Source: a virus
Reading direction: 5' to 3' (one strand)
Virus record (IMG/VR): IMGVR_UViG_3300010885_044532
Coordinates: 1-29,194 of that record
Length of the DNA stretch: 29,194 nucleotides
Both the position numbers and the translations under genes were made by a program. Under the pieces are notes generated by a model that was not told the origin of the DNA, ran no database searches, and worked only from the letters and a program-made list of their open reading frames with translations. Shown in pieces: positions 1 to 13,645 of the stretch (position 1 is the stretch's first letter; every line of letters begins with the position of its first letter).

Positions 1-90
1 CGGTTGCGCCGCATCATTTGGAATTTGTTGGATGACGGCGATGAAGTAGATCGTGCAGAGGCCCGTGCCGCACTAAAGGGAGATGAGTGA
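1..90 (+). CDS. Hypothetical protein, C-terminal fragment (paralog of the 57-aa protein at 431)
   Basis: Only the last 29 codons are present, open from base 1 to a TGA at 88-90. The fragment begins RLRR and ends RAALKGDE. The 57-residue product at 431-604 also has IERLRR in its middle and ends RAALKGDE. At DNA level, 62-80 and 576-594 are identical over 19 bases, and 1-11 matches 503-513. This is therefore the tail of a duplicated small gene, with a roughly four-residue length difference between the shared blocks. The TGA overlaps the ATG of the next gene (TGATG). Function unknown; the charged, Leu-rich text suggests a short helical or coiled-coil protein. Confidence 0.7.
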   Translation, partial: RLRRIIWNLLDDGDEVDRAEARAALKGDE

Positions 91-594
91 TGATCAGCAA
101 AGACAAACAGTATCGCACCCGCGATGGCCGTGAAGTTCGTATTTACGCGACGGATGGATATACTAACTTTCCCGTTCATGGGGCGTTGAAAAATGATGAA
201 GGGTGGATGCCGTTGCAGTGGCAAAAAGACGGAAGCTGGCATCCATCCGACAAAGGTTTTTATCTTGTCGAAGTAAAGCCGCGCATCAAGCGGACTATTT
301 GGATAAATATCTTCCCAACAATAGTTCCATCTGCTGTTTTTCCAAATAAACGTGATGCAGACTTTAGGGGTGGCAACCGCATCGCTTGCGTGAAGGTCGA
401 GATTGACTGTGAAGAGGGAGAAGGTTTGTAATGGATATTGTTGAACGGTTGCGCGGAGATTACAGCGACGAACGATTGGAGATTGCCGCAGACGAGATTG
501 AGCGGTTGCGCCGTGAGGTAGAAGAGGCGAATGCCCGTGCATATATCATGGCTAAAGAAGTAGCCCTGTGGCAATCCCGTGCCGCACTAAAGGG
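62..594 (+). repeat. 19-bp direct repeat from gene duplication
   Basis: CCCGTGCCGCACTAAAGGG at 62-80 recurs at 576-594. Both copies are the 3' end of genes encoding RAALKGDE. A second shared block (1-11 with 503-513) confirms a duplicated small gene flanking the gene at 90-431. Confidence 0.85.
90..431 (+). CDS. Conserved phage hypothetical protein
   Basis: The product is 113 residues from ATG at 90; a GTG at 87 would add one residue. The ATG overlaps the upstream stop, and the TAA at 429-431 overlaps the next ATG, so translation is probably coupled. The N-terminal half carries YRTRDGREVRIYATDG followed by PVHGA and two tryptophan-containing segments. I associate this with a small uncharacterised phage protein type that has a compact beta-rich N-terminus. 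No signal peptide, membrane segment or catalytic motif is visible. The C-terminus is acidic (EIDCEEGEG). Function unknown; the position suggests an early accessory protein. Confidence 0.75.
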   Translation: MISKDKQYRTRDGREVRIYATDGYTNFPVHGALKNDEGWMPLQWQKDGSWHPSDKGFYLVEVKPRIKRTIWINIFPTIVPSAVFPNKRDADFRGGNRIACVKVEIDCEEGEGL

Positions 595-604
595 GGATGA
601 ATGA
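431..604 (+). CDS. Small helical protein, 57 aa (MDIVERL family)
   Basis: A 57-codon gene with ATG at 431 (TAATG overlap with the gene before) and TGA at 602-604 (ATGA overlap with the gene after). It starts MDIVERLRG, contains AADEIERLRREVEEA with heptad-like Leu/Ile spacing, and ends RAALKGDE. Such short proteins are frequent in early regions of tailed phages and often occur in several copies. Here the window-edge fragment (1-90) is a close relative, and the 49-residue product at 825 shares the MDIV start and an EIERLR segment. A short coiled coil is likely. Role unknown. Confidence 0.75.
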   Translation: MDIVERLRGDYSDERLEIAADEIERLRREVEEANARAYIMAKEVALWQSRAALKGDE

Positions 605-825
605 AGATCATACACATCAACCGGAACATCATCCAAGCAAACGCGAAGCACGGCAAGCAAGATCCTGTCTGCCGTGTAGAGGACAAAGGTCAGGTGACAT
701 ACTGCATGGAGGTTGTGATCAATGGCCCGTCCAGAATGGTCTATCGACCAGACAAACCTAGGCCTTGCGGTGCAAAGCTTTGGATCGAGACAGAAGCTCC
801 GTTGGTATTGATAGGGGTTGCGTGA
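601..825 (+). CDS. Conserved phage hypothetical protein, 74 aa
   Basis: ATG at 601 overlaps the previous stop (ATGA), and the TGA at 823-825 overlaps the next start (TGATG). The 74-residue product begins MKIIHINRNIIQANAKHG. It has a GPSRMVY segment and then PCGAKLWIETEAP near the end. I associate the INRN..I..N start and the CGA..WIET end with a small uncharacterised phage protein type. No membrane or catalytic motif is seen. One copy of the GGACAAAGGTCA repeat (681-692) lies inside the coding sequence. Confidence 0.75.
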   Translation: MKIIHINRNIIQANAKHGKQDPVCRVEDKGQVTYCMEVVINGPSRMVYRPDKPRPCGAKLWIETEAPLVLIGVA

Positions 826-974
826 TGGACATCGTACAAAAGCTAAAGAACTGGAAGCATTGGGCAACAGGCGGTCAGAAGATCGTGCTTGAAGAAACGA
901 TTGCTGAGATCGAACGTCTGCGTAATTTGCTGAACAGCCATGCAAAAATGTCAGAGGACAAAGGTCAACGATAA
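825..974 (+). CDS. Small helical protein, 49 aa (second MDIVxxL paralog)
   Basis: The reading frame stays open upstream to 765, but the likely start is the ATG at 825, which overlaps the preceding stop and restores an MDIV N-terminus like the gene at 431. The 49-residue product has TIAEIERLRNLLNSH in the middle, parallel to DEIERLRREVEEA of the 57-residue protein, and a charged tail. It is probably a diverged duplicate. Its last codons contain the second GGACAAAGGTCA repeat (956-967). Function unknown. Confidence 0.7.
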   Translation: MDIVQKLKNWKHWATGGQKIVLEETIAEIERLRNLLNSHAKMSEDKGQR

Positions 975-1012
975 GTATACGTTTGACTATCGACCGAGAG
1001 AAAGGGTCTGTG

Positions 1013-1204
1013 ATGGAAAGCGCAAAGAGATTAACGCCTCATGTCTTCGAACTTATGGGTAGACTGAGCGAGGTAGATGCAAGGGATCAGGAAGAGTGTG
1101 ACGCAGTAGCTCGATTGGTCTGGAATGACTGGGCCCAAGCACTGTGGTGGGATATGCAGGAAGAAATCAAAGCTTATCTGGAGAAAAGAAATGCAGTTAA
1201 ATGA
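1013..1204 (+). CDS. Hypothetical protein, 63 aa
   Basis: The frame is open from a TTG at 983, but ATG at 1013 is preferred because GAGAAAGGG lies just upstream (about 998-1006). The product (63 aa) is charged and helical, with two Trp-rich helical stretches (ARLVWNDWAQALWWDMQEE). No recognisable domain. Its end overlaps the next gene by 14 bases. Function unknown. The gap before it (975-1012) contains a TTGACT hexamer at 983-988 but no matching -10 box. Confidence 0.6.
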   Translation: MESAKRLTPHVFELMGRLSEVDARDQEECDAVARLVWNDWAQALWWDMQEEIKAYLEKRNAVK

Positions 1205-1400
1205 CAGAGGACACATGGTATTCGACGTTAAGCTGAGTTCATCTGATCTTGCTTTCATCTCGATGGTCATGGAGATGTATGCAGTGCAGATGGAACAGTC
1301 GTTGAAAGAAATCAAATCGCGCAATTCAAATGCTGTGAAGCTCATCTCATTTGTTAAGCGTGATATCCGTAATGCAAAGCGTTTGGTGGAGACCCTGTGA
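1191..1400 (+). CDS. Hypothetical protein, 69 aa
   Basis: The ATG at 1191 is chosen because GGAGAAAAG precedes it at a suitable distance; an in-frame ATG at 1215 is an alternative. The product (MQLNDRGHMVFDVKLSS...) has a short strand-like start followed by long predicted helices with many Met/Leu residues (FISMVMEMYAVQMEQSLKEI). It is not hydrophobic enough for a confident membrane span. The TGA at 1398-1400 overlaps the next ATG. No family recognised. Confidence 0.6.
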   Translation: MQLNDRGHMVFDVKLSSSDLAFISMVMEMYAVQMEQSLKEIKSRNSNAVKLISFVKRDIRNAKRLVETL

Positions 1401-1750
1401 TGCAAGCTTATGTAATTGATCCGAAGGCAAGGACGGTTGAGGCCTTTGACTACAGCGATAACTGGAAAGACATCGCAGGGATTCTTGGTTGCCAATCATT
1501 CGACATTGCAGGGACTGACAAGTTTTCTTTGTATGTTGATGACGAAGGTTTGTTTGCACCAGAGCGTCACTTCTTCATGATCGAAGGATACCCGCAACCA
1601 CTGTGCAACAAATCATTACTGCTTGGCCCAGTTGATTATGACACAGGCGATACGTTGGAATCTCCTCTGACACTGGAACAAGCAACAGCATTGGTAAAGT
1701 TCCTGACTTTAGACGAGGCAAAGGAAGCCTCAAAAATGTTGCGGGAGTAG
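1400..1750 (+). CDS. Conserved phage protein (MxAYxIDPxART type)
   Basis: ATG at 1400, overlapping the previous stop (a GTG at 1397 adds one residue). The 116-residue product begins MQAYVIDPKARTVEAFDY, then has YVDDEGLF, FFMIEGYPQPL and a LLGPVD segment. This layout (IDP.ART, DDEGL, FF, PQPL.K..LLG) is one I recognise from uncharacterised small proteins common in phage early regions and broadly resembling DUF3846-like folds. That DUF assignment is tentative. No catalytic motif. It is likely a soluble cytoplasmic protein made early. Confidence 0.75.
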   Translation: MQAYVIDPKARTVEAFDYSDNWKDIAGILGCQSFDIAGTDKFSLYVDDEGLFAPERHFFMIEGYPQPLCNKSLLLGPVDYDTGDTLESPLTLEQATALVKFLTLDEAKEASKMLRE

Positions 1751-1755
1751 GGGAA

Positions 1756-2085
1756 ATGAAGCACTTATTGACGGCGGCACTCCTTCTCACAAGCACACAG
1801 GCGTTTGCTGTGCAGACATCGTTCTTATGTAGAACAGAGACGAAAGAATACATCGATGTTGTGTCGAAGGGCGACAACACAGGTGAAGTTCTCGTGCAGA
1901 TCAATGGCGGGAAGTTCTTGGAAGGCTTTGGTGAATTCGAAGAGCCAGTCCTGTTCCTCAAGATTCCGCTCGACAACGGTGTGATCTTGATTGGCTATAA
2001 TGTGCTGACGGATAAAGCCATTGTTGCCACAGACATTGGTGGCAAGAAGACTTCTCAAAACATGACGTGCCAGTTCAGGGATTAA
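1756..2085 (+). CDS. Exported protein with signal peptide, 109 aa
   Basis: ATG at 1756 with GGGAGTAGGGG just upstream. The product starts MKHLLTAALLLTSTQAFA, a classical Sec signal peptide (positive n-region, Leu/Ala-rich core, AFA cleavage site), leaving about 91 mature residues. Two cysteines remain in the mature part, near residues 25 and 105, and could form a disulfide in the periplasm. The mature part looks beta-rich. No family recognised. A secreted early phage protein could act in superinfection exclusion, envelope modification or lysis; the sequence does not decide which. Confidence 0.75.
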   Translation: MKHLLTAALLLTSTQAFAVQTSFLCRTETKEYIDVVSKGDNTGEVLVQINGGKFLEGFGEFEEPVLFLKIPLDNGVILIGYNVLTDKAIVATDIGGKKTSQNMTCQFRD

Positions 2086-2188
2086 GCGGGTGATCTTCCT
2101 GACACTGCTCTGCTACGGTCGATCCAAGGTTGAGAAGCAGTAGAAATCAACCGCCCCGCACAGACATACTACAAGGGACAAAGGTCAG
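2086..2188. other. Intergenic gap with inverted repeat and repeat motif
   Basis: This 103-base gap is one of the largest in the early arm. It holds an inverted repeat GGTTGA (2129-2134) / TCAACC (2147-2152) with a 12-base loop and no following T-run, so it is not a typical terminator. It also holds one GGACAAAGGTCA motif (2176-2187) immediately before the next ATG, where AAAGG may serve as ribosome-binding site. I found no convincing sigma70 promoter and no supported gene. Confidence 0.45.
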
Positions 2189-2440
2189 ATGGCAAGCAGA
2201 CTTACGGCAAATGGATTCGAACTCGCCTTCCTCGGTGTCGGTAGGCAGTTCAACCAAGAGCTTTCGGTTTATGACTACGACAGATGTATTGAGATCCTAT
2301 GTGATCGAGACGGCATGACCATGGAAGAAGCTGTTGAGTACATGGAATACAATGTTGTGAATGCGTGGGTTGGTAAAGGCACACCAGTATTCGTGGAGTT
2401 GGGCGATGATGGGGCACAAGGAGAAGATGAAGAACGGTGA
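2189..2440 (+). CDS. Hypothetical acidic protein, 83 aa
   Basis: ATG at 2189 directly follows the repeat GGACAAAGGTCAG, in which AAAGG can pair with 16S rRNA. The product begins MASRLTANGFELAFLGVGRQ, then has YDYDRCIEILCDRDGMTMEEAVEYMEYNVVNAWVG, and ends in a strongly acidic tail (GEDEER). The MT.EEA.EY..YNV..AWVG stretch is a pattern I associate with uncharacterised phage proteins. No catalytic or membrane features. It overlaps the next gene by 14 bases. Confidence 0.75.
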   Translation: MASRLTANGFELAFLGVGRQFNQELSVYDYDRCIEILCDRDGMTMEEAVEYMEYNVVNAWVGKGTPVFVELGDDGAQGEDEER

Positions 2441-2573
2441 CGAGTACGACTATCTTACTCGTGCAAGACGCTTCTTCCACAAGAAGGCCGGACAGATCCG
2501 CAAGATAAAGCGGAGATTCTGGAAGAGACAAAGGTCAGAAGTCAGAGATCAATTGAAAGGAGATCGAGAATGA
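2427..2573 (+). CDS. Small basic protein, 48 aa
   Basis: The frame is open from 2361, but ATG at 2427 has AAGGAG (2419-2424 region) just upstream and gives a 48-residue product beginning MKNGDEYDYLTRARRFF. The body is very basic (KKAGQIRKIKRRFWKRQR). The DEYD.LT.ARR.F....AG..R.IKR arrangement is one I recognise from small phage proteins of unknown function. The basic helix would suit nucleic-acid binding (inference). It contains the fourth repeat copy (GACAAAGGTCA, 2527-2537). It overlaps the next start by four bases (ATGA). Confidence 0.7.
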   Translation: MKNGDEYDYLTRARRFFHKKAGQIRKIKRRFWKRQRSEVRDQLKGDRE

Positions 2574-2920
2574 CTTTGCAAGACGCAGTTATGGACTACA
2601 TAGAGACACAGAACCACGTAAGTTTTGCCGAGCTTACCAATAGGTTCCCGCAGTTTAAGGGAGGGGAGATGGCAGTATGTGCGCCAAGCCATCCGACGAT
2701 TATTTACTGGTGCGACATGCAAGAAGAAGCGGCAGAGGTAGTCAAGAATCTTTTTGAGTCCGAGAAGATACACTTCAAGCGAGCATCCGCTCTTATCTAT
2801 GCGATTGACGGGTTAAGTTTGAGCCTACCTATCGCAAAATCTGTACGGCAATTTAAAAATGATCACTGGCTTCCCGTTATAATCATGAAGGGAAAACGCA
2901 CGAAGGAAGAAAAGAAATGA
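2570..2920 (+). CDS. Hypothetical protein, 116 aa, possible winged helix
   Basis: ATG at 2570 preceded by AAAGGAG at good spacing. The product (116 aa) has VMDYIETQNHVSFAELTNRFP near the N-terminus, which reads like the first helices of a winged-helix or MarR-like fold. It continues with IIYWCDMQEEAAEVVKNLFES, a YAIDGLSLSLPIA segment and HWLPVIIMKG, then a basic tail. Similar arrangements are present in uncharacterised phage proteins. A DNA-binding role is inference only. The stop at 2918-2920 overlaps the next ATG. Confidence 0.7.
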   Translation: MTLQDAVMDYIETQNHVSFAELTNRFPQFKGGEMAVCAPSHPTIIYWCDMQEEAAEVVKNLFESEKIHFKRASALIYAIDGLSLSLPIAKSVRQFKNDHWLPVIIMKGKRTKEEKK

Positions 2921-3063
2921 TGAAGCGAATTAAAGAACAGGCGGAAGATGCATTCATTGAGTTGGGGCTTCCACTCTTCATGGGTGTAGTTGGATTCGGA
3001 CTTGGTATAGCGGTGATTTGTCTAGTGTTTTCAACGCTTTACAACCTGATCCATTTCTTTTGA
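2917..3063 (+). CDS. Single-pass membrane peptide, 48 aa; holin-like candidate
   Basis: A 48-codon frame with ATG at 2917 (ATGATGA overlap with the stop of the gene before) and TGA at 3061-3063. After a charged N-terminus (MMKRIKEQAEDAF) comes one long hydrophobic span, about residues 17-44 (LPLFMGVVGFGLGIAVICLV...), ending in HFF. A positively charged short N-terminus and one Gly-rich helix fit a small holin, pinholin or membrane regulator. The next gene is a secreted lytic transglycosylase, which makes a lysis role attractive. No sequence family is recognised, so the function is inferred from topology and neighbourhood. Confidence 0.65.
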   Translation: MMKRIKEQAEDAFIELGLPLFMGVVGFGLGIAVICLVFSTLYNLIHFF

Positions 3064-3092
3064 TTGACTTGGGTGGTGGTGTCCATGATACT
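3064..3092 (+). promoter_or_regulatory. Candidate sigma70-type promoter for the lytic transglycosylase
   Basis: TTGACT (3064-3069, 5/6 to consensus) and GATACT (3087-3092, 4/6) are separated by exactly 17 bases, in the 60-base gap between the membrane peptide and the transglycosylase. Transcription would start near 3099, leaving a short leader with AAGGA (3112-3116) and ATG at 3124. A GGGTGG/CCACCC inverted repeat (3071-3076/3094-3099) overlaps the spacer and could be an operator or a leader hairpin. No expression evidence. Confidence 0.4.
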
Positions 3093-3123
3093 GCCACCCC
3101 CGAAACGGCAGAAGGACATGAGG

Positions 3124-3525
3124 ATGAGGGCTTTGGCAATCATCGCAGTGGCATTCGCTTTTCCCGCACTGGCGGGTGATCCAGTGGATCAGATGTTGAA
3201 TGATGCAGCGGATCGACACGGACTATCGCGCAAGATTGTACATGCGGTAGCAATGGTCGAGAGTACGAAACGATGTGGTGCTAGGAATGGCCCACACCGA
3301 GGTATACTTCAGGTGTCTCGTGGCGCAGTGAAAGAGGTTGGTATGCAATGGCCCCCTCGAAGTTGTTACGAAGAGATTGAGGCGGGTGTACGCTACCTGA
3401 AGAAAGCGGTAGACAGAGGCGGAACAGGATGTAACGGTGTCACTCTCTACAACACGGGGATCAATGCCAAGCCGCATTGTTCTGCGTATGGTAGAAAGGT
3501 TATGCGCTACTCAGGTGACACATGA
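3124..3525 (+). CDS. Secreted SLT-type lytic transglycosylase, 133 aa
   Basis: The product cleaves the glycan strand of peptidoglycan, as inferred from the SLT/goose-lysozyme fold signatures. It has AMVES with a catalytic Glu near residue 46, then GILQVS (the G.mQ motif) and LYNTG (the YN.G motif) near residues 109-112, with SAYGRKVM at the end. The ATG at 3124 is chosen over 3064 (TTG), 3085 and 3118 because AAGGA at 3112-3116 sits seven bases before it. That start also gives a clean signal peptide (MRALAIIAVAFAFPALA). At about 115 mature residues it is a minimal SLT domain. Several Cys residues could form disulfides in the periplasm. It may act in lysis or in local wall opening. The family call is firm; the role is inferred. 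Confidence 0.85.
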   Translation: MRALAIIAVAFAFPALAGDPVDQMLNDAADRHGLSRKIVHAVAMVESTKRCGARNGPHRGILQVSRGAVKEVGMQWPPRSCYEEIEAGVRYLKKAVDRGGTGCNGVTLYNTGINAKPHCSAYGRKVMRYSGDT

Positions 3526-3710
3526 ACAGAGAGCAGAAGATAAAGGATCTTGTTTCGTCTGGCATTAACAATGTCATCAAAATTGAAACACATCAGTGGC
3601 TCGGCATCATTCGCTCTCTACTTAACATCATATTCAGTTCCATGGACGACAAGGAATTGAATGAGGTGTACGAAGAAGTAATTGGTTCGGATAAACCTAA
3701 AGCAGGTTGA
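3522..3710 (+). CDS. Hypothetical protein, 62 aa
   Basis: ATG at 3522 overlaps the transglycosylase stop (ATGA), so the two are probably translated together. The product begins MNREQKIKDLVSSGINNV and contains an amphipathic, moderately hydrophobic stretch (WLGIIRSLLNIIFSSM), then an acidic helix and a short basic end. It is not clearly a membrane protein. No family recognised. Its position behind the SLT gene leaves open a lysis-related role, but nothing in the sequence proves it. Confidence 0.6.
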   Translation: MNREQKIKDLVSSGINNVIKIETHQWLGIIRSLLNIIFSSMDDKELNEVYEEVIGSDKPKAG

Positions 3711-3735
3711 CGAGAAGAAACACTTGATCTAATCT
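3707..3735 (+). promoter_or_regulatory. Candidate sigma70-type promoter
   Basis: TTGACG (3707-3712, 5/6) overlaps the end of the preceding gene. A -10 element follows as either TAATCT (3730-3735, 17-base spacer, 3/6) or TCTAAT (3728-3733, 15-base spacer, 5/6). It sits in the 49-base gap before the gene at 3760 and is followed by that gene's ribosome-binding site (AAGGA near 3752-3756). The match is moderate, and the choice between the two -10 registers is open. Confidence 0.35.
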
Positions 3736-3759
3736 TTACCGTAGAAAGGGCAAGGACAG

Positions 3760-4074
3760 ATGACAAAGGTTATTAGTGGTGAGTTCGATTACCTCTTTGA
3801 TTTTTATATCGAAGAGCCTAGATTCATAAGCGTAAGTGGTACTGCCACCATTCGTTACGAAGCCGAGTGCTACAGTAAAGATGAAGGTTGGTCAGTAGAA
3901 AGCATCAACATTGCAGACCTAATGGTCGAGGAGGCATTCAATGATGAAGGTAATGAAGCAAAGATTGATCCAAGTGAAATCATTCGCATTGCAGATTTTC
4001 TTAACGACAAAGAGTCTGGCGTTCTGGTTGAGCGAGCCCTTGAGGACGCTATGGAACGTGATTTCTGGGGTTAG
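3760..4074 (+). CDS. Hypothetical acidic protein, 104 aa
   Basis: ATG at 3760 with AAGGACAG upstream. The product has a beta-rich first half (GEFDYLFDFYIEEPRFIS, GTATIRYEAECYS) and an acidic helical second half (ADLMVEEAFNDEGNEAKID, ERALEDAMERDFWG). No catalytic motif, cysteine cluster or membrane segment is visible. No family recognised. A GACAAAGGT motif lies at 3762-3770, at the very start of the coding sequence. The gene probably begins a new early transcript given the promoter-like sequence before it. Confidence 0.7.
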   Translation: MTKVISGEFDYLFDFYIEEPRFISVSGTATIRYEAECYSKDEGWSVESINIADLMVEEAFNDEGNEAKIDPSEIIRIADFLNDKESGVLVERALEDAMERDFWG

Positions 4075-4321
4075 CATCAAGCGTGTGCGGCGTAATCTTG
4101 GGGAGCCATTTGTTTATGTTGGCAACAAGATCGCAGGACGCGACCGTGAGATGGAAGCTATCATCAATCTTGTACTCAAAGAAGATGACGACACGGAGTT
4201 TCAGTACGAAGTAGCACTGACTTTGCGTCGATATGATATCCACGTTGGAACATACGATACGTATGAAGAAGCGGGAAAGATTTCTGACAACATCGATAAG
4301 TCCCTGAAGGAGTTAGCATGA
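4058..4321 (+). CDS. Hypothetical protein, about 87 aa (start uncertain)
   Basis: The frame is open from 3941, but most of that overlaps the previous gene out of frame. The GTG at 4058, with TGAGGA upstream, gives an 87-residue product with 17 bases of overlap; GTG at 4085 is another option but lacks a ribosome-binding site. The product runs RNLGEPFVYVGNKIAG, REMEAIINLVLKEDDDTEFQYEVALTLRRYDIHVGTYDTYEEAGKISD. An alternating strand/helix pattern suggests a small alpha/beta domain. No family recognised. Its stop overlaps the next ATG. Confidence 0.55.
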   Translation: MISGVSIKRVRRNLGEPFVYVGNKIAGRDREMEAIINLVLKEDDDTEFQYEVALTLRRYDIHVGTYDTYEEAGKISDNIDKSLKELA

Positions 4322-4539
4322 CAGAGGGTGGCGCACAGTTACACATGTTCGACAAATCCATTGCGGAGATTCGAGCGGTTCAAGTTTTTGTTGAGAAGAC
4401 AGGTGAGAATCTGTCGTGGAGTTTGGAATACCGCTTCGCCGGAGAAGACAAGTGGTATCCGGTACAGGTGCAGAGCTTTGGCGTAGAATTGGCAGAGAAT
4501 AACGATGAATCAACAACAGGAAATACAGAAGCTTCGTGA
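4318..4539 (+). CDS. Hypothetical protein, 73 aa
   Basis: ATG at 4318 overlaps the previous stop (ATGA). The product begins MTEGGAQLHMFDKSIAEIRA and has a beta-hairpin-like segment (LSWSLEYRFAGEDKWYPVQV) and a polar Asn/Thr/Glu-rich tail that is probably disordered. The last 35 bases overlap the start of the next gene in another frame. No family recognised. Confidence 0.65.
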   Translation: MTEGGAQLHMFDKSIAEIRAVQVFVEKTGENLSWSLEYRFAGEDKWYPVQVQSFGVELAENNDESTTGNTEAS

Positions 4540-4861
4540 AGAACTTCTGAACTACAAATCAATCTTCGACACTGGGAACGATGATCATCGATTCTCTACG
4601 GCGTTCAAGGCTCCCAAGCAATTGGCGGCAGTGATCAAGGCTCTCTATCTGTTTCCGATTGTCGGGTACAATTCCTTGATCGCCATCGCTGATAGTCACG
4701 GTCACACACAAGACCACGACAAGACCTATGTGCGTATGATGATCTATCGCACTCGGAAGATCCTCAAGAAGTACGGCATCGAGATCGAGGCTCGACCACT
4801 GTTCGGGTATGAGATTGATGCAAAAGCCAGAGCAAAGATTAAGGAGATGGTTGGTGACTGA
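4505..4861 (+). CDS. Winged-helix DNA-binding protein (OmpR/PhoB C-terminal-like)
   Basis: ATG at 4505 gives 118 residues. After a short coiled-coil-like start (QQQEIQKLREELLNY) the body ends YVRMMIYRTRKILKKYGIEI, then PLFGYEIDAKAR. This resembles the recognition helix plus wing of OmpR/PhoB-type domains (vhI..LRkKL...gi.I.t..g.GY.l). There is no receiver domain, so it is not a response regulator. Phages often encode such stand-alone domains. It likely binds DNA as an early transcription factor or replication accessory. The N-terminal helix may mediate dimerisation. It lies just before another putative DNA-binding gene and overlaps it by eight bases. Confidence 0.7.
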   Translation: MNQQQEIQKLREELLNYKSIFDTGNDDHRFSTAFKAPKQLAAVIKALYLFPIVGYNSLIAIADSHGHTQDHDKTYVRMMIYRTRKILKKYGIEIEARPLFGYEIDAKARAKIKEMVGD

Positions 4862-5402
4862 TCTCTCGTTTGTTGAGAACTACAAAGAGATTCGTAAACG
4901 GTTAAATGGCGGTGGTCAAAAGGCAGTTGTCATCCCGAAGACGGAAGAAGTCGTTGCCCGTAAGGAAGAAGTCGTTGCCCGTAAGGAAGAGGTGGTGACT
5001 CAAAGTTTGATTACCCAGATACAAAATGGGGATCTTACGAAAACAAAAATCTTAAAAGACCCCGTGATGCGGGGCTATCTTCGCAAGTCAACCATTCTTA
5101 AGGAGGGCATTAGCTATCGCGAGGCTCTTCTCAAGGGTGCGGAAGATTTGCCAAAGCGAATGAAGCTTCTGGTTCTCCCGATATTGGAGGAGTCTGATTT
5201 CAGTTGGGAAGAATTGTTCGGCAAGGATCCCGTCACCAATCGCAATGCTAGGACACCGGAAACAGTCAAGGTAAAGTGGGAGATCTTCAGGGAACTTCAG
5301 ACTTACTTGAACATGAATGCGAATCAGATCGCCGCATGGTGCAAGATGGATCATACGTCAGTGGCATATGGGCTTGGTACTTTAAGAAAGAGTAAACGGT
5401 AA
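4854..5402 (+). CDS. Putative DNA-binding protein with DnaA-domain-IV-like C-terminus
   Basis: GTG at 4854 is chosen because AAGGAG (4841-4846) is seven bases upstream; the ORF is open further upstream from 4809. The product is 182 residues. Residues about 31-48 hold a tandem EEVVARK repeat. A basic middle follows, then a C-terminal segment MNANQIAAWCKMDHTSVAYG. This resembles the DnaA domain IV signature, in which ..iG..f..rDHsTV.. contacts the DnaA box. There is no AAA+ ATPase domain, so it is not a DnaA initiator. It could bind DnaA-box-like sites at a phage origin or control transcription (inference). The link to DnaA rests on a short motif. Confidence 0.6.
   Translation: MTDLSFVENYKEIRKRLNGGGQKAVVIPKTEEVVARKEEVVARKEEVVTQSLITQIQNGDLTKTKILKDPVMRGYLRKSTILKEGISYREALLKGAEDLPKRMKLLVLPILEESDFSWEELFGKDPVTNRNARTPETVKVKWEIFRELQTYLNMNANQIAAWCKMDHTSVAYGLGTLRKSKR
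4944..4985 (+). repeat. Tandem 21-bp repeat inside the DnaA-like gene
   Basis: GAAGAAGTCGTTGCCCGTAAG occurs twice head to tail (4944-4964 and 4965-4985), followed by a decayed third start (GAAGAGGTGGTG). The unit is in frame and encodes seven residues (EEVVARK), one heptad. Copy-number changes would lengthen or shorten a helical linker without a frameshift. Confidence 0.85.
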
Positions 5403-5671
5403 TGAAGAAGACAAACGAATTGCTCAACGAACGTGAGACAACTCATGGTGACTTCCTTGAGGTTTCAACCGTGGCGCAGAGCATCAAGGCAGCTATGCGG
5501 CAAGCCCCAAACTGGGAGGCCATAGACCCCCGCATGCAAGAAGCCCTTGACATGATCGGTAACAAAATAGGAAGGTTACTTTCTGGTAACCCCTTCTTTG
5601 ACGATCACTCGGACGACATTGCGGGGTACGCAGAACTACTAAGAAAGGCTGTGAAATGGAACAACTCATAG
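5402..5671 (+). CDS. DUF6378-like phage protein, 89 aa
   Basis: ATG at 5402 overlaps the preceding TAA. The 89-residue product has LLNERETTHGDFLEVSTVAQ, then MRQAPNWEAI, MQEALDMIGNKIGRLLSGNP and DHSDDIAGYAELLRK. This order (E..T.GDF, Q.IK, W..., EALDMI..KI.R.L.G, D.w.DIAGYA.L) is that of the phage family usually labelled DUF6378, whose role is not established. The His/Asp/Glu-rich helical layout recalls all-alpha NTP pyrophosphatase-like proteins, but I cannot confirm that link. Soluble, cytoplasmic, early. Confidence 0.75.
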   Translation: MKKTNELLNERETTHGDFLEVSTVAQSIKAAMRQAPNWEAIDPRMQEALDMIGNKIGRLLSGNPFFDDHSDDIAGYAELLRKAVKWNNS

Positions 5672-5832
5672 GGATCCTCGTGCTTTTACCCGTTGCTTTG
5701 TCCTTGGTCATGGTAAGTCTGCGGATCAGAAAGGAATATCTGTATGGCACTGAGTATGATGTGTTCAGGAGAAACATGTTCTTTGGCACACAAGTGCGTG
5801 ATGTCCCCGAAGAGCGGAACGAAACCAAGTGA
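5656..5832 (+). CDS. Small membrane protein, 58 aa
   Basis: ATG at 5656 lies 16 bases inside the end of the previous gene, and TGA at 5830-5832 overlaps the next start. The product has an N-terminal hydrophobic span, about residues 4-23 (LIGILVLLPVALSLVMVSL), followed by a charged cytoplasmic-type tail (RIRKEYLYGTEYDVFRRN) ending PEERNETK. The topology (short N-terminus, one helix, basic flank) fits a signal-anchor protein. A holin or membrane-associated role is possible, but no family is recognised. Confidence 0.65.
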   Translation: MEQLIGILVLLPVALSLVMVSLRIRKEYLYGTEYDVFRRNMFFGTQVRDVPEERNETK

Positions 5833-6320
5833 CAATCAGGGATGGTTCATTGACGAACCATATTGGCGAGATGGAACAGCAAGTCCTACCCTCTGCGACT
5901 GGTACTGGCCCAAAAAAGAAAAGGGCAACACCTCGTTACCTTACACGGACGTGGATCGAAGGATCGCAACTGATTCTTTGTACGAACGAACAACAGTTCA
6001 AGAGGGTTCTAAAGAAGACTGGGCAGAAGGATGACCTCTTCCTAGACGATGGAGCCCTCGCCATGACGCATAGCTTCAAGCATAACAATGATTCGTTATG
6101 CATTGTGTGCATGCCTATCTACAATGATATGGAAGCGGCAGATGTGATCGGGCTACTGGTGCATGAAGCCGTGCATGTTTGGCAGTATCATTGCGAATAC
6201 ATTGGCGAAACAAAGCCAGGCGAAGAGCAGGAAGCATACTGTATCCAAGCGATTACAACCTTCTTGTTTCGTGACTATCTCAGACAGAGGGGGATCGAGG
6301 ACGATGGAAAGACAAGCTGA
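5829..6320 (+). CDS. HExxH-containing putative metalloprotein, up to 163 aa
   Basis: GTG at 5829 overlaps the previous stop (GTGA); ATG at 5871 would give a 149-residue alternative. The product contains PRYLTRTW early, CIVCMPIYND in the middle and then LLVHEAVHVWQ, an HExxH zinc-binding motif. A conserved-looking GEEQEAYCIQAI follows about 18 residues later, where a Glu could be the third ligand, as in gluzincin-type peptidases. I associate the HEAVHVWQ...GE..P..EQEAYCIQ layout with uncharacterised tailed-phage proteins. A peptidase activity is possible but undemonstrated. No signal peptide. Confidence 0.7.
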   Translation: MTIRDGSLTNHIGEMEQQVLPSATGTGPKKKRATPRYLTRTWIEGSQLILCTNEQQFKRVLKKTGQKDDLFLDDGALAMTHSFKHNNDSLCIVCMPIYNDMEAADVIGLLVHEAVHVWQYHCEYIGETKPGEEQEAYCIQAITTFLFRDYLRQRGIEDDGKTS

Positions 6321-6513
6321 TCCTGTAACCATAGACCATATCATTGAACTTCGTAGAGAGATCGCTCGGTTGGAGAAAGAAGTTCAGAACTATAAGAACT
6401 ATGTCTCTATGGTGTACAACACCATGATCGAGATCCGAATGATTCTCCGGCATTGTGACGAGCCTAATCAGGCTGTACTTGATGCAATAAATACTGCAAT
6501 CAAACGATTGTGA
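6304..6513 (+). CDS. Small coiled-coil protein, 69 aa
   Basis: ATG at 6304 with GAGG just upstream; the frame is open from 6163 but that part lies inside the HExxH gene. The product begins MERQADPVTIDHIIELRREI and continues with a heptad-like helix (ARLEKEVQNYKNYVSMVYN), then a second helix. It is likely an all-helical oligomerising protein. No family recognised. It closes the cluster of small early genes before a 57-base gap. Confidence 0.6.
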   Translation: MERQADPVTIDHIIELRREIARLEKEVQNYKNYVSMVYNTMIEIRMILRHCDEPNQAVLDAINTAIKRL

Positions 6514-6515
6514 TC

Positions 6516-6544
6516 TTGACAAGAAAGACACAGCCTCCTAGCTT
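6516..6544 (+). promoter_or_regulatory. Weak candidate promoter before the replication module
   Basis: A perfect TTGACA (6516-6521) is followed after 17 bases by TAGCTT (6539-6544), a poor -10 match (3/6). It sits in the 57-base gap before the gene at 6571, which is the only gap of that size ahead of the replication genes. A boxless activator-dependent promoter would look like this, and so would chance. Confidence 0.25.
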
Positions 6545-6570
6545 GCGTCTTCATACGGAGAAAGAAAGCC

Positions 6571-6885
6571 GTGACGGTATACATAACACAGGAAATGAGA
6601 GGCAGAGATCTATCCGATGCTTTAGAGTTCGGTGATCTCGATGTCATCATTCCTGCAAAAGATCAGATCAGTCTATCTGCAATGCCGACAGTAAGGCGTA
6701 TGCAGAGAAAGCTTGCGAAGTTTACAGATGAGGATTTCTTGGTGCTTGCCGGAGATCCGGTCTGCATTGGAATAGCTTGCGCTCTTGCGGCAGCAGCCAA
6801 CAGAGGTAAGTTTAAGGTTCTGAAGTGGGACAGAATTGATAACAGATATTATCCCATTCAGGTCAGTCTATACGGAAAGGAGTAG
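6571..6885 (+). CDS. Conserved phage protein, 104 aa (QEMRGRDLSDA type)
   Basis: GTG start at 6571 with GGAGAAAG upstream. The product has VYITQEMRGRDLSDALEFG, DVIIPAKDQISL, PTVRRMQRKLAKF, LVLAGDPVCIGIACALAAAA and LKWDRIDNRYYPIQV. I recognise this block order from an uncharacterised protein found in many podovirus genomes next to replication genes. The GDP..IGIACA segment is Gly/Ala-rich and may form a nucleotide or ligand pocket (inference). Function unknown, but the close spacing to the next two genes suggests a shared transcript with the DNA replication proteins. Confidence 0.8.
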   Translation: MTVYITQEMRGRDLSDALEFGDLDVIIPAKDQISLSAMPTVRRMQRKLAKFTDEDFLVLAGDPVCIGIACALAAAANRGKFKVLKWDRIDNRYYPIQVSLYGKE

Positions 6886-6888
6886 AAA

Positions 6889-7446
6889 GTGTCCTTACTT
6901 AACAGCCTAGAAGAATACGCAACCGATGTTGCGAAGATGAATGAGACTGGGTTGTCTCGCGTGTCAGCACTTGTACGCAAACAGCTTACTCTTGAGAAGC
7001 GCGTCGAGGATCTTGAAGAAGAACTCAAGGCGGCAAAAGAAAACCTCCGCACGGTAGCGGAGCAAGATCTTCCAATGGCCCTACATGAGATGGGCATGAA
7101 AGAAGTAAAGATGGATGACGGCAGTATTGTATCTGTCGCCAACTTCTATAATGTCTCGATCCCCAAAGACAAAACAGAAGAGGCCTTCGATTGGCTTCGC
7201 CTGAATGGTCACGGTGATCTGGTAAAGAATGTTGTGTCAGCTACGTTTGGTCGGGCTGAAGATAACAGAGCGAAAGATCTTATCGGGAAGCTTTCCGATG
7301 AGGGTTATGCAGTAGCGCAGAAGCAGTGGGTCGAGCCAATGACGCTCAAGGCTTTTGCAAAGGAACAGGTTGAGCAGGGAACAAACATCCCTACCGAATT
7401 GTTCGGTTTGTACATTGGCGAAAAAGCGAAAGTCCGGAGAAAGTAA
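6889..7446 (+). CDS. Conserved phage protein, 185 aa, coiled-coil N-terminus
   Basis: GTG start at 6889, supported by GGAAAGGAG upstream. Residues about 15-65 form a likely coiled coil (RKQLTLEKRVEDLEEELKAA). A mixed domain follows with LHEMGMKEVKMDDGS, a SVANFYNVSIPKDK segment and WLRLNGHGDLVKNVV. The C-terminal third (VEPMTLKAFAKEQVEQG) precedes LFGLYIGEKAKVRRK with a basic end. I associate this architecture with an uncharacterised phage protein that usually lies just before the ssDNA-binding-like gene, as here. No catalytic residues evident. Confidence 0.75.
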   Translation: MSLLNSLEEYATDVAKMNETGLSRVSALVRKQLTLEKRVEDLEEELKAAKENLRTVAEQDLPMALHEMGMKEVKMDDGSIVSVANFYNVSIPKDKTEEAFDWLRLNGHGDLVKNVVSATFGRAEDNRAKDLIGKLSDEGYAVAQKQWVEPMTLKAFAKEQVEQGTNIPTELFGLYIGEKAKVRRK

Positions 7447-8250
7447 ATGGCTAAGAATGCTGTTGCAGTATCGCAACCCACATCAGGTGCGGTTGCTATG
7501 ATTGGTGGAATGGATCTTGAACAGTTCGCGGGTGCGGGCATGCAAGAAGTTAAGGCTACGGATCTCGCGATTCCGTTCCTTCGCATTCTTGCTCAGCTCT
7601 CACCGCAAGTGAACAAGCGCGATGGCGCATACGTTCAGGGCGCAGAGGCAGGTGACATCTATCACACGGTCTCGAACACAGCCCTCAAGGGTGCCGATGG
7701 TATCACGGTTGTTCCGTGCTACTTCCAACATCGCTATCTTGAATGGAAGCCTCGTGAAAAGGGCGGAGGTTTTGTCGGAAGCCATCGTGCTGATGATGCC
7801 ATCGTGAAGTCAACACGTCGCGATGATCGCGGCAATGATGTTCTTCCAAATGGAAACTATCTCGTCAACACGTACCAGTTCTTTGTGCTTCTTCTCACAG
7901 AGGAAGGCCCACATCGTTGCATGGTTGCGATGTCAAGCTCGCAGGTTACCAAGGCAAAGAAGTGGCTGACGGTTATGGAGAGCCAGACTTTCCGTAGCTC
8001 GACAGGAAACCTTCTCACCTACCCGATGTTCTACAACAAGTATCGGATGGTCACTGTGCCACAGCAGAACGACAAGGGTTCATGGTACGGTTGGGAAGTC
8101 CAGAAGATCGGGCCTCTTGAAGAAAGCGAAGCGCACATCTTCCAGATGGGTGCGATGTTCATGAAGTCGATTAGTGCAGGTGATGTTGTGGTTCGTGAAG
8201 ATCACGAAGAACATTCTTCTTCACAGCCTTCGCACACTGACGTGTTCTAA
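7447..8250 (+). CDS. Probable single-stranded DNA-binding protein, 267 aa
   Basis: ATG at 7447 starts directly after the previous stop. The product has a flexible N-terminus, an ATDLAIPFLRILAQLSPQV segment, GDIYHTVSN, VVPCYFQHRYLEWKPRE and many aromatic residues in a beta-rich core. The last 25 residues are Asp/Glu/Ser-rich and end THTDVF-like (HTDVF). Acidic tails with a terminal Phe are the hallmark of bacterial SSB and T7 gp2.5, where they contact polymerase and helicase. The size and location just before primase, helicase and polymerase genes support an SSB role. I cannot name a confirmed family; a recombination-type annealing protein is the main alternative. Confidence 0.55.
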   Translation: MAKNAVAVSQPTSGAVAMIGGMDLEQFAGAGMQEVKATDLAIPFLRILAQLSPQVNKRDGAYVQGAEAGDIYHTVSNTALKGADGITVVPCYFQHRYLEWKPREKGGGFVGSHRADDAIVKSTRRDDRGNDVLPNGNYLVNTYQFFVLLLTEEGPHRCMVAMSSSQVTKAKKWLTVMESQTFRSSTGNLLTYPMFYNKYRMVTVPQQNDKGSWYGWEVQKIGPLEESEAHIFQMGAMFMKSISAGDVVVREDHEEHSSSQPSHTDVF

Positions 8251-8261
8251 TTATCAGGGAC

Positions 8262-8284
8262 GGGGGAGGCTATGTACCTCCCCC
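8262..8284 (+). promoter_or_regulatory. GC-rich hairpin at the primase 5' end
   Basis: GGGGGAGG (8262-8269) and CCTCCCCC (8277-8284) form a perfect 8-bp stem with a 7-base loop (CTATGTA). The loop contains an in-frame ATG (8272-8274), and the 5' arm contains a GGAGG ribosome-binding sequence. No T-run follows, so it is not a classical terminator. It lies 12 bases after the SSB-like stop. It could block initiation at ATG 8272, act on transcript stability, or pause transcription. Confidence 0.7.
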
Positions 8285-8301
8285 ACATCTGGAGCCTAAT
8301 C

Positions 8302-9831
8302 GTGGATCTTAGCCAAGAATTTTTTGACCTCTTCGTGGGGAGCGACATTGCTCACGGCACGTTCGAGATCAATGCCGAAAGAGTGACAGATGGCAAACGG
8401 CAGGGGACTGCTCGCGTCATTCGCGAGGCTACGACAATTGATCATTGGCGCAGTCATCTCGATGGCAAGACTGGCCTCGGCATTATTCCAATCACAAGCC
8501 AGAACAACGTCCGGTGGTGCGCCATCGATGTCGATGTCTACAGTCTTGACCATGCCGCTCTCGCACGGAAACTTCAGCTACTCAATATCAATGGTGTACT
8601 CTGTCGCTCTAAGTCCGGAGGTGGACATCTATACTTTTTCTTATCGCAGTCCATCCCTGCGGGGGATGCTATGGCGAAGCTCGGATCTGTGGCATCTTTC
8701 CTCGGCTACGGAAACTGCGAGATTTTCCCGAAGCAGTCGTCTATCCTTCTTGAGCGGGGGGACACAGGCAACTTCCTCAACATGCCATACTTCGCAAGTG
8801 GGCGAAGCACACGCTATGGATTCGATGGAACCGGAGCCAGTCTCAGCGCATCTGAGTTCGTCGATTTTGCCAAGTCAAAGATCCTGACACCGGAAGAGTT
8901 CTTCGCAATTAAGACACGCGATGATACTCACGATCAGACTTTGCCGGAAGGCCCGCCTTGCCTACAGCACCTTGCATCGCAGGGCTTTGGTGAAGGCAGT
9001 CGTAACAATGCTCTTTTCAATCTCGGTGTGTATGCGCGTCAAGCGAACCCAGAAGGTTGGGAAGATCAAGTCAGAACTATGAATGACAAGATGGTCATTC
9101 CTCCTCTCGCCCTGCGCGAAGTCGATGTTGTTATTAAACAGCTTAAGAAGAAAGAGTATTTCTATAAGTGCAACGATCAGCCTATCGCTTCGTTCTGCAA
9201 CAAGGAAATCTGCAAGACCCGCAAGTTCGGTGTCGGTGAGGGCAATGCAACAGTGGACATTGGTTCACTGACAAAGATCAATGGTGATCCGCCAATCTGG
9301 ATCATGACTGTGGACGGAGAACGTCTTGAACTCAGCACTGATGCCCTTCACTCACAGACCTTCTTCCAGAAGGCATGCATCTCACAGATCAATAAGTTCC
9401 CGCCGATGATGAGCGCACCTGCATGGCAACGCCGTGTGTCTGCACTGCTTGCATCTGCTACGGTTGTCGAGGTTCCGCCAGACACAACCACTCGCGGTGA
9501 GTTCGAAGATCTCTTTACATCGTTCTGCTGTGATCGCGCTCGCGGTAACGAGCGTCAGGAAATCCTGCAAGGCATTGCCGTGTGGACAGATCGCCGTGTC
9601 TTCTTTCAGATCAAGGATCTCAAGAAGCATCTCTCCGTTAATGGTTTCACAACATACACTTCAAACAAGATCGGTCTCATTCTCAAAGAGATCGACGGAG
9701 CAGACAAGTCGTTCTGGAATATCCGTGGCAAAGGTGTGCATGTGTGGAGCGTCCCAGAAGAATACTTCGGAGAGAACGTGGTTACACAGAAGCGTGACTT
9801 CCCTGCAATGCGTGGCGAGGATCTGCTCTAA
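8302..9831 (+). CDS. TOTE-type archaeo-eukaryotic primase, about 509 aa
   Basis: The product synthesises primers for phage replication. GTG at 8302 is preferred because GGAG (8291-8294) is seven bases upstream. ATG at 8272 (519 aa) has GGAGG only two bases away and lies inside a hairpin. Numbered from 8302, the AEP core has CAIDVDVYS (metal ligands D76 and D78), KSGGGHLYFF (H109) and EIFPKQ near 145, as in the TOTE-conflict primase domain. The second half has PPCLQHL with C220, a GSRNNALFNLG motif, then C290, C299 and C304 (CNDQ, FCNKEICK), a possible metal or Fe-S site. The C-terminal 200 residues are not assigned. The gene is coupled to the helicase by TAATG. Confidence 0.8.
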   Translation: MDLSQEFFDLFVGSDIAHGTFEINAERVTDGKRQGTARVIREATTIDHWRSHLDGKTGLGIIPITSQNNVRWCAIDVDVYSLDHAALARKLQLLNINGVLCRSKSGGGHLYFFLSQSIPAGDAMAKLGSVASFLGYGNCEIFPKQSSILLERGDTGNFLNMPYFASGRSTRYGFDGTGASLSASEFVDFAKSKILTPEEFFAIKTRDDTHDQTLPEGPPCLQHLASQGFGEGSRNNALFNLGVYARQANPEGWEDQVRTMNDKMVIPPLALREVDVVIKQLKKKEYFYKCNDQPIASFCNKEICKTRKFGVGEGNATVDIGSLTKINGDPPIWIMTVDGERLELSTDALHSQTFFQKACISQINKFPPMMSAPAWQRRVSALLASATVVEVPPDTTTRGEFEDLFTSFCCDRARGNERQEILQGIAVWTDRRVFFQIKDLKKHLSVNGFTTYTSNKIGLILKEIDGADKSFWNIRGKGVHVWSVPEEYFGENVVTQKRDFPAMRGEDLL

Positions 9832-11333
9832 TGCACATTATCCTTGGCCCCCCAGGCACGGGCAAGACAACAAAGCTTTTGACATTAGTCGAAGGTTATC
9901 TTGAATCCGGTGTTCCGCCAGATCGTATTGGTTACTTCGCCTTCTCTCGTCGTGCGGCGCACGAGGCAATCACTCGTGCGGCAACTCGTTTTAAGAAAGA
10001 CGCGAAGCAGTTCCCGTACTTTCGCACACTGCACAGTCTTGCCTTTCGTCAGATGCAGATCTCACCGCGCAACATCATGACGCGCATGCATTACGATGAG
10101 GTTTCAGAGTGGCTGAAGATCCCGCCATTTCATGGGTTCGAGGTTGAGGAAGGGCCGTTCGTAGACTTCGGTCTCGGTGACAAGTATCTTGAAGTCATAG
10201 ACATGGCTCGTATCTGTTGCATCCCGTTGAAGGATGCGTACCTCCGGTCTGGCGCACACAAGCGCGTGGATTGGTCGATGATCGAGATGGTTGATCGCGC
10301 CCTCAAGAAGTTCAAGGCATCGAAGAATCTCTTCGACTACACCGACATGCTCGAACAGTTTGTTGCTCACGATCTCGCACCATCACTCGACGTGGCATTC
10401 ATCGACGAGGCACAGGATCTTTCCCCGCTTCAGTGGAAGATGGCAGATCTCATCGAGAAGGCATCAAAGGAAACATACATCGCAGGTGATGACGATCAGG
10501 CTATCTATCGTTGGGCAGGTGCTGATGTGGAATACTTTATCCGTCTCGACGGTAAGATTCAGGTCTTGGATCAGAGCTATCGTATCCCGCAGACGCATCA
10601 CCAGATCTCACAGCAGTTAATCAACCGCGTATCATCTCGTCGCCCGAAAGAGTTTCGTGCGCGTGAAGAGAATGGTTCTGTGGTGTGGCATCCAGACAGC
10701 ATCTCCGTCGATCTTACTGAAGGATCATGGCTTCTGCTCGCTCGCACAAAGCAGATGGTCAAGCACCTTGAGGAAGAGGTAAAGGTCAAAGGACATTTGT
10801 ACACGAGCAAGCTCACAGGAAGTGCGGTATCCGATGTCATGCAGGCCATCGAGATCTGGGAAGATCTCCGTGCAGGCGGATCGCGGATCGCTCAGGATGT
10901 ACGCATTGCGTACAAGTACATGGAGCTTCGATCTCAGGTAGCGCACGGCTTCAAGACTATCCCGAATGTAGACGAAGACAGGCTTCTCAACATCAACGAT
11001 TTAAAGCAGGAGTTCGGTCTCTTGCATGACGAGCCATGGTCAACGGGCCTCCGTCGTATTCCTGTAGAATACAAGCAGTATCTTGAAGCCTGTATCAAGA
11101 AGGGCGAAAAGATAGGTGGAAAACCCCGCATCCACATATCCACTATCCATGGAGCAAAGGGGGCCGAAGCAGATAATGTTCTTCTGCTTACGGACTATTC
11201 TCCTCCGGCAAAGGCGATGCAAGAAAAGCATCACGCTGATGATGAAAAGCGTGTATTCTATGTCGGTCTAACGAGGGCGAAGCAGAACCTTCACCTTGTC
11301 CATCCAATGTTTACTGCGGGGTTCAAGCTATGA
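9831..11333 (+). CDS. UvrD/Rep-like superfamily 1 DNA helicase, 500 aa
   Basis: ATP-dependent DNA translocase/helicase. ATG at 9831 overlaps the primase stop. The Walker A box GPPGTGKTT is at residues 6-14. Motif Ia is FSRRAAHEA, motif II FIDEAQDLSP (D192/E193), motif III GDDDQAIYRWAGAD near 220, motif IV DQSYRIP near 246, motif V STIHGAKGAE near 437, and motif VI YVGLTRAKQ near 475. All signature motifs of SF1A are intact. At 500 residues it is shorter than host UvrD (about 720), with reduced insert domains, as in phage Dda-like helicases. With no DnaB-type helicase in the window, it may be the main fork helicase or a recombination helicase (inference). Confidence 0.92.
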   Translation: MHIILGPPGTGKTTKLLTLVEGYLESGVPPDRIGYFAFSRRAAHEAITRAATRFKKDAKQFPYFRTLHSLAFRQMQISPRNIMTRMHYDEVSEWLKIPPFHGFEVEEGPFVDFGLGDKYLEVIDMARICCIPLKDAYLRSGAHKRVDWSMIEMVDRALKKFKASKNLFDYTDMLEQFVAHDLAPSLDVAFIDEAQDLSPLQWKMADLIEKASKETYIAGDDDQAIYRWAGADVEYFIRLDGKIQVLDQSYRIPQTHHQISQQLINRVSSRRPKEFRAREENGSVVWHPDSISVDLTEGSWLLLARTKQMVKHLEEEVKVKGHLYTSKLTGSAVSDVMQAIEIWEDLRAGGSRIAQDVRIAYKYMELRSQVAHGFKTIPNVDEDRLLNINDLKQEFGLLHDEPWSTGLRRIPVEYKQYLEACIKKGEKIGGKPRIHISTIHGAKGAEADNVLLLTDYSPPAKAMQEKHHADDEKRVFYVGLTRAKQNLHLVHPMFTAGFKL

Positions 11334-13618: not shown

Positions 13619-13645
13619 TGTTGCCGTAAGAAAGGGCAGAGGACA

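Follow-up and report, generated by a model that had tools for sequence, protein, structure and literature searches.

A predicted exported SLT lytic transglycosylase, encoded apart from the late M15 endolysin, as a candidate accessory signal-peptide endolysin

Why would a virus that encodes an endolysin at the end of one arm carry a second, apparently exported wall hydrolase in the other? The question is raised by the IMG/VR virus record IMGVR_UViG_3300010885_044532, whose 29,194 bases, analysed at full length, are called the window here. The plus-strand arm of the window holds small genes together with primase-, helicase- and polymerase-like proteins (named by inspection), and the minus-strand arm holds the virion genes, with an M15 endolysin last (15082-15537); the labels 'early' and 'late' for these arms derive from gene content alone. 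An original prediction had described in the early arm a lysis-like cassette made of a membrane peptide, a private promoter and a secreted SLT transglycosylase. We assign a probability of about 0.5 to the reading that the gene at 3124-3525 specifies an accessory signal-peptide (SP) endolysin, i.e. a Sec-exported, periplasmic family 1 SLT enzyme made outside the late programme. This reading draws on the SLT fold, an invariant Glu, a signal-like N terminus, paired cysteines, selection on the gene and its separation from the endolysin. The features needed first are these:

3110-3117, plus strand: ribosome-binding site AGAAGGAC, assigned by inspection, inside the invariant block CCCCGAAACGGCAGAAGGACATGAGGATGAG
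3124-3525, plus strand: predicted exported SLT lytic transglycosylase of 133 amino acids (aa), or 135 aa from ATG 3118, assigned by profile, model and alignment
15082-15537, minus strand: M15 peptidase endolysin, last gene of the late arm, without a signal peptide by a crude rule; assigned by profile matches and by the same place in the relative G004

The open reading frame (ORF) that contains the SLT gene was listed from TTG 3064. In comparison with L003 and L004, which with the window and L001 make up the four distinct sequences of the window clade, the first 54 nucleotides (nt) of this frame differ at 0/2/1 and 3/5/3 sites in the three codon positions, respectively, while the mature part of the gene differs at 14/5/55 and 13/3/63 sites, of 113 each. 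Thus the first 54 nt evolve without a codon pattern, which rules out the TTG start and leaves ATG 3124 or ATG 3118; the spacing of the ribosome-binding site suits the former better. Judged by the same codon positions, the mature SLT is under strong purifying selection in the clade.

The protein begins with a signal-peptide-like segment of about residues 1-17 (MRALAIIAVAFAFPALA, with the cleavage site placed by inspection before the G of the following GDP...), after which come about 115 residues of SLT domain. The Pfam SLT profile matched the window copy with an E-value of 0.0014 and 18.7 bits, under the cut-off of 21.3; a prophage-like member of the family (G015) scored 42.9 bits, above it. 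Profile matches were also obtained to Slt70 (3.2e-10) and T7 gp16 (6.3e-8), and the top match in PHROGs was phrog_342, the T7 gp16-type family. No NCBIfam family was found for the SLT protein or for the 48-aa peptide encoded upstream of it, and a phmmer search with the single SLT protein against the PDB gave one match, unrelated (E = 0.3). The AlphaFold2 model built from 34 family sequences had a predicted local distance difference test score (pLDDT) of 91.9 (46.4 for a prediction from four sequences alone) and resembled MltF, Slt and MltC at Z of 14-15, with Z 15.2 for MltF (112 residues, root-mean-square deviation (rmsd) 2.3) and Z 15.0 for 5mpq (115 residues, rmsd 2.0). Plain Foldseek gave a best E-value of 7.1e-4 (MltC). 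On the strength of the model, the SLT catalytic fold in 3124-3525 is confirmed, and with it the minimal SLT domain that had been proposed from the sequence; the proposed Sec-type signal peptide appears to stand too, as far as a signal-like N terminus can tell.

Family 1 (SLT/GEWL) enzymes are marked by a catalytic Glu followed by Ser, by G-x-x-Q and by a Y-N-x-G-like motif. In our alignment A6, the catalytic Glu46 as well as Ser47, Gly60 and Gln63 are invariant in all 34 members, and Tyr109 and Gly112 are kept in at least 90%. The 34 rows are the window and 33 of 49 loci (48 from IMG/VR and one bacterial); the alignment omits 13 near-duplicates (L046, L047, L053, L056, L066, L067, L081, L083, L084, L085, L090, L092 and L093), a locus with an ambiguous start (L063) and a broken copy (L075/L094).

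The 49 loci were collected as follows. A tblastn search with the SLT frame gave no match among phage records at 1e-5. On plasmids, tblastn found relatives in Methylobacterium pAMS5a (42% identity), an M. oryzae plasmid (39%) and an M. indicum plasmid (37%), and a 30% relative on a Bosea plasmid of 692 kb, where it lies among genes without phage annotation. Plasmid pAMS5a is a phage-plasmid, with annotated RepC, terminase, capsid, tape measure and lysozyme genes. A profile made from the plasmid relatives and the clade (A3) located 48 SLT loci in IMG/VR, the members outside the clade having up to 70% identity to the window copy, and a single locus among bacterial genome contigs, from Bradyrhizobium sp. 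RP6; with one pattern used for the bacterial scan and two for the viral one, the counts of 1 and 48 are not directly comparable. When the close alignment was scanned against bacterial genomes, 89 pattern matches resulted, with no SLT relative among them. The Bradyrhizobium copy is broken, as is its IMG/VR counterpart (L075 and L094, around 5962-6388), the matches being split over two frames. Hosts named in the records are Methylobacterium, Bosea and Bradyrhizobium sp. RP6 only; other records are called prophage-like here from their likeness, in the SLT and its neighbours, to the Bradyrhizobium sp. RP6 record.

The presence of members in prophage-like records and on a RepC phage-plasmid, together with the 30% relative on the large Bosea plasmid, is what would be expected if the gene were a moron of temperate phages, that is, a periplasmic transglycosylase that clears wall debris or helps the lysogen to grow and has been kept in some other phages. 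We consider this explanation quite unlikely: in the window clade, with its two-arm plan of HTVC023P type, the gene is the object of the strong selection described above, and the bacterial scan, subject to the caveat on its count, gave one relative, a broken one.

The cysteines of the family behave as pairs. Of the 34 aligned members, 26 have both Cys51 and Cys81 and eight have neither, one never occurring without the other; seven of these eight have an alternative cysteine pair elsewhere in the alignment, in two other columns. All 34 have Cys103, partnered by Cys119 in 28 and by an alternative cysteine in six. The aligned sequences are related, so p-values for these cysteines do not come from independent tests. 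Gain and loss in pairs points to disulfides and hence to an oxidising compartment, as predicted for an exported enzyme. By a crude signal-peptide rule, 30 of the 31 members with a defined start pass (L087, with no early K/R, fails), a figure that leans favourable, the starts having been partly picked by hydrophobicity. Among controls, four of 30 other ORFs of the window pass, and the M15 protein and a gp16-type domain fail.

These two properties bear on the kinship with T7 gp16. A detached gp16-type domain could be a virion-associated transglycosylase that serves DNA entry, and sequence searches seem to favour this: phrog_342 is the best PHROG, and gp16-type proteins, at about 33-34% identity, have the lowest tblastn E-values (from 6e-5) among the best 30 phage rows. 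However, the gp16-type domain used for comparison, the T7-type virion domain of phage SPLA4, lacks both the signal peptide and the paired cysteines (it contains no cysteine at all), the SLT gene is an early-arm gene without fusion to a structural protein, and its nearer relatives are free, signal-peptide-like SLT proteins, those at 37-42% on Methylobacterium plasmids and, outside the clade, at up to 70% in IMG/VR. Virion incorporation is unlikely for a protein with such a signal, and we regard this explanation as highly improbable. Assignment to the T7 gp16 internal virion protein family itself was rejected, the window protein having 133 aa, a signal-like start and a place in the early arm as against a large virion protein. 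The two do share the catalytic fold (PDB 6yt5, 7eyb and 9jyy for gp16), and among named phage families gp16 is the best sequence match; the SLT domain of gp16 is part of a large internal virion protein, whereas that of the window stands alone and has cysteine pairs and a signal peptide. Another match is BFVD entry A0A6J5QZM4 (42% identity, E = 5.9e-11), one of the small LT_GEWL proteins of uncultured Caudovirales, which probably belongs to the same subfamily and has no recorded function.

How is the SLT gene placed with respect to other wall enzymes? For the window, the prediction that a cytoplasmic-type M15 endolysin closes the late arm held up. The same is seen in the 62-kb relative G004, which has two arms as in the window and an M15 gene likewise ending the late arm. 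We searched 18 family records, selected by us from the 48 and mostly longer ones, with PF00959, PF13539 and PF01510; with G004, where the M15 protein was used, this makes 19 SLT-bearing records, of which 12 have a second wall enzyme. This enzyme is M15 in G004 and G027 (in the latter inside a frame of 1015 codons, perhaps a tail protein), a lysozyme in G020, G021 and G024, and an amidase in seven prophage-like records, including G029, where the SLT is broken. Matches to M15 below the cut-off in G012 and G028 were left out of the count. In all 12 records the SLT gene lies at least 12 kb from the second enzyme, even when records are treated as circles, and the two genes lie on opposite strands in 10 (all but G020 and G021). 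In G015, for example, the SLT gene adjoins genes for a Prim-Pol primase and a helicase, and an Amidase_2 gene follows the tail genes. The separation of wall hydrolases, first noticed in the window as a split between arms, therefore recurs in these records. A search for GH108 in 14 records gave no match, its control likewise giving none anywhere; a terminase search (phrog_2) matched in five of the 18 records and was not used for distances.

If the accessory SP-endolysin reading is right, signal peptidase would cut the protein after ALA and two disulfides (51/81 and 103/119) would form in the periplasm. The enzyme would cut glycan strands from early on, and as long as repair kept up the cell would not lyse; once a late holin had killed the membrane, the M15 peptidase of the cytoplasm would join in on an already weakened wall. 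The SLT enzyme would thus work together with a canonical endolysin whose bond specificity differs from its own.

Besides the crudeness of the signal-peptide rule, several observations weigh against this reading. All four clade relatives, like the window copy, score under the Pfam SLT cut-off. The gene, present in the window and four relatives, was not found by profile or PF01464 in five sister-clade records (about three distinct, mostly fragments, one over 30 kb), nor in DSL-LC04 and HTVC023P (DSL-LC04 and the HTVC023P type are the closest named phages by DNA polymerase, at 50-53% identity); it therefore seems dispensable for lysis in relatives. By its distribution it looks like an accessory gene. 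Seven of the 19 records yielded no second wall enzyme above the cut-offs, the completeness of these records not being established, and there the word 'accessory' is unsupported. The distance from the other wall enzyme, in all 12 records judged, also counts on this side, and the occurrence of the gene in prophage-like records and a phage-plasmid suits a role before lysis equally well.

Such a role could be early wall modification: the exported enzyme would remodel peptidoglycan shortly after infection, or in a lysogen, blocking the docking or DNA passage of a second phage, or would prune glycan for another host-takeover purpose. The position in the early arm (beside replication genes in G015), the opposite strands of the SLT gene and the late wall enzyme in 10 of the 12 records, the carriage by prophage-like records and a phage-plasmid and the patchy distribution, as for host-interaction genes, all agree with it. 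T4 Spackle offers a precedent in that an early periplasmic phage protein acts at the level of the wall, by inhibiting lysozyme, according to excerpts of the report (PMC7677548). Spackle, however, inhibits wall cutting, which an SLT enzyme should promote, and cutting could help a second phage; among the matches listed in open PMC papers no title or abstract opening described a hydrolase used for exclusion. We see early wall modification as unlikely, if well within reason. Our sequence-based evidence does not separate it from accessory lysis. A wider claim appears possible though doubtful, namely that the family consists of early-made, disulfide-bonded periplasmic transglycosylases which reshape the host wall during infection or lysogeny for ends other than lysis, e.g. 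governing later DNA entry, and which are host-takeover enzymes common to lytic-type phages, prophages and phage-plasmids, some of them of alphaproteobacteria.

The SLT gene has small neighbours on both sides:

2917-3063, plus strand: 48-aa peptide MMKRIKEQAEDAFIELGLPLFMGVVGFGLGIAVICLVFSTLYNLIHFF with one predicted transmembrane (TM) segment, about residues 17-43, from hydrophobicity, with limits set by inspection
3522-3710, plus strand: 62-aa protein with no assigned role; its start overlaps the SLT stop by 4 nt (ATGA), and it is conserved in the clade at 56-82% identity

The predicted single-pass membrane peptide is borne out by its one hydrophobic segment and by its length, exactly 48 codons at this place in the four distinct clade sequences, of which the other three match the window at 22-24 of 48 residues. 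With its basic N terminus (KRIK) it is, by inspection, probably oriented N-in/C-out. Pfam gave no match to it, and PHROGs gave one of E = 0.016 only, to a family of unassigned function. Among the SLT loci compared, relatives of the peptide, and likewise the 62-aa protein, are found in the window's clade only; both would be clade-specific additions.

Could the peptide and the SLT form a self-contained early lysis cassette, the first as a trigger of holin type and the second as the endolysin? Throughout the clade the two adjoin, while the gene that precedes the peptide is not the same in the window as in its relatives. Yet the phage keeps its M15 endolysin, and G004 has a candidate holin in its late arm (14724-15248, L018), a membrane protein so named by inspection that belongs to phrog_1544, without assigned function. 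A small TM ORF ending within 150 nt upstream of the SLT gene occurs in only nine of 31 family members tested, and the peptide evolves fast while the SLT evolves slowly. We think such a cassette very unlikely, and the peptide as an obligate SLT partner is rejected family-wide. Of the cassette proposed originally, the two proteins and their adjoining in the clade thus stand; as a unit it is weak, with a small TM ORF in those 9/31 members, and the promoter lacks support.

The region in question between the peptide and the SLT contains two overlapping features:

3064-3092, plus strand: TTGACT-N17-GATACT, the promoter of the original prediction, with its '-10' box within the 3' arm of the hairpin below
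3071-3099, plus strand: 13-bp RNA hairpin GGGTGGTGGTGTC-CAT-GATACTGCCACCC, from RNA folding, between the peptide stop and the ribosome-binding site of the SLT gene

Scans for promoter-like sites came out at the level of chance: 10 sites in 1-15100 against 15.9 in shuffles and, with up to three mismatches, 24 matches in the whole window against 22.4 expected. The '-10' box scores 4/6 in the window and L003 and 3/6 (GACACT) in L004. Given these scans and a conserved hairpin that covers the site, we set the private promoter aside as the poorer reading; TTGACT-N17-GATACT is probably not a promoter. The TTGACT box and its 17-base spacer are kept in the window, L003 and L004, and there may be a weak promoter at 3064-3092.

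The hairpin has a predicted stability of -20.1 kcal/mol, and 60 shuffles of the whole window averaged 0.12 stems this stable, with a maximum of two. L003 keeps all 13 bp, with one U-G pair changed to C-G; L004 keeps 11 bp, some of them formed by other bases, and has a loop of six bases. This covariation is suggestive rather than statistical, the comparison comprising three distinct sequences (L001 is identical to the window there). The intergenic 54 nt appear constrained, because they have three (L003) and 11 (L004) differences against 55 and 63 at 113 third positions of the gene. We read the hairpin as an RNA element, possibly a processing or stability site, which would tune, process or protect the SLT part of an early message. 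An intrinsic terminator was rejected: the stem is followed by CCGAAACGG, with no T run, and is not among the terminator-like sites scanned. A double-stranded DNA operator is less likely, because three of the 13 pairs in the window are G-T, which are tolerated in RNA and not in a DNA palindrome. No Rfam family matched anywhere in the window at gathering thresholds.

Among 25 members of the wider family (four of them of the clade), 12-bp stems occur upstream of the SLT gene in L068 and L071 and weaker stems of 8-9 bp in L051, L088, L089 and L091; the other 15 have no stem of at least 8 bp there. Between the short stems of L088 and L091 the sequence differs and the pairing is kept.

Several other features of the window may be recorded. 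One is a second early protein with a possible export signal:

1756-2085, plus strand: protein with a signal-peptide-like N terminus by the crude rule, family unassigned

Its relatives are 74% identical in L003 and 46% in L055/L056, where the gene lies two genes upstream of the SLT. DSL-LC04 (L006) encodes at 25102-25428 an early-arm protein annotated as type VI amidase/Tai4, also with a signal-like N terminus; kinship of the two proteins was rejected, as blastp showed no similarity at E-values up to 10. At 5829-6320 lies a gene for a small protein with a HEAVH metallopeptidase-like motif (phrog_882, function unassigned in PHROGs), and at 15537-20945 one for an 1802-aa protein with a HEMFH motif, whose counterpart in G004 has the Pfam domain LPD38 at residues 1499-1656. 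A perfect 21-nt tandem duplication (4943-4984) lies within the ORF 4809-5402. An 8-bp inverted repeat, GGGGGAGG/CCTCCCCC, at 8260-8286 has the ribosome-binding site of the primase-like gene within one arm, with the ATG of that gene (8272) falling in the loop.

Is a gene of this kind already known? According to excerpts of one report (PMC7150955), Kayvirus Tgl is a transglycosylase with a signal peptide and a promoter of early type; joint action with the late endolysin LysK has been proposed, and S. aureus producing Tgl lysed only upon addition of nisin. It resembles the window SLT as a second wall enzyme beside a late endolysin, with concerted action proposed; it differs, by the same excerpts, in having a Gram-positive host, greater length, relation to IsaA/SceD and a location a few genes from lysK. 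The window SLT, for its part, belongs to another SLT subfamily, lies in the other arm from the endolysin and is preceded by a hairpin, with no supported promoter. The Lys protein of Campylobacter Fletchervirus F352 is, in the excerpted text of PMC7692668, a signal-peptide SLT endolysin (PF01464) that depended on Sec and a holin to lyse E. coli; it shares a Gram-negative host and lysis genes that are not in one cassette. That Lys is the phage's own endolysin, whereas the window has an M15 endolysin besides the SLT, and the two are likened by description. For Campylobacter Firehammervirus the same source, in part, describes a gene overlapping the endolysin that delays lysis (PMC7692668), to which the 62-aa ORF overlapping the SLT stop may be likened on gene layout alone. 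Lys44 of Oenococcus phage fOg44 is an SP-endolysin brought to the wall by the Sec system through its signal peptide, as excerpts of PMC6116005 state; its host is Gram-positive, and it too is likened by description only.

The kind of enzyme is thus already known from Kayvirus Tgl and Fletchervirus Lys; the subfamily and its arrangement appear to be new. Among the matches listed in open PMC papers, no title or abstract opening mentioned the paired-cysteine subfamily, its placement in the arm opposite an M15 gene or the recurrence of that placement.

If the accessory SP-endolysin reading is true, the attack on the wall would be split in both time and compartment, one enzyme being exported early and the other kept back until the holin is triggered. 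That different kinds of phage have the same split would mean that it was kept, or gained more than once, and a culturable Methylobacterium or Bradyrhizobium carrier would allow it to be tested. For annotators, the family would provide a recognisable subfamily, with a signal peptide, a length of about 133 aa in the window and paired cysteines, which PHROGs files nearest to virion proteins of gp16 type.

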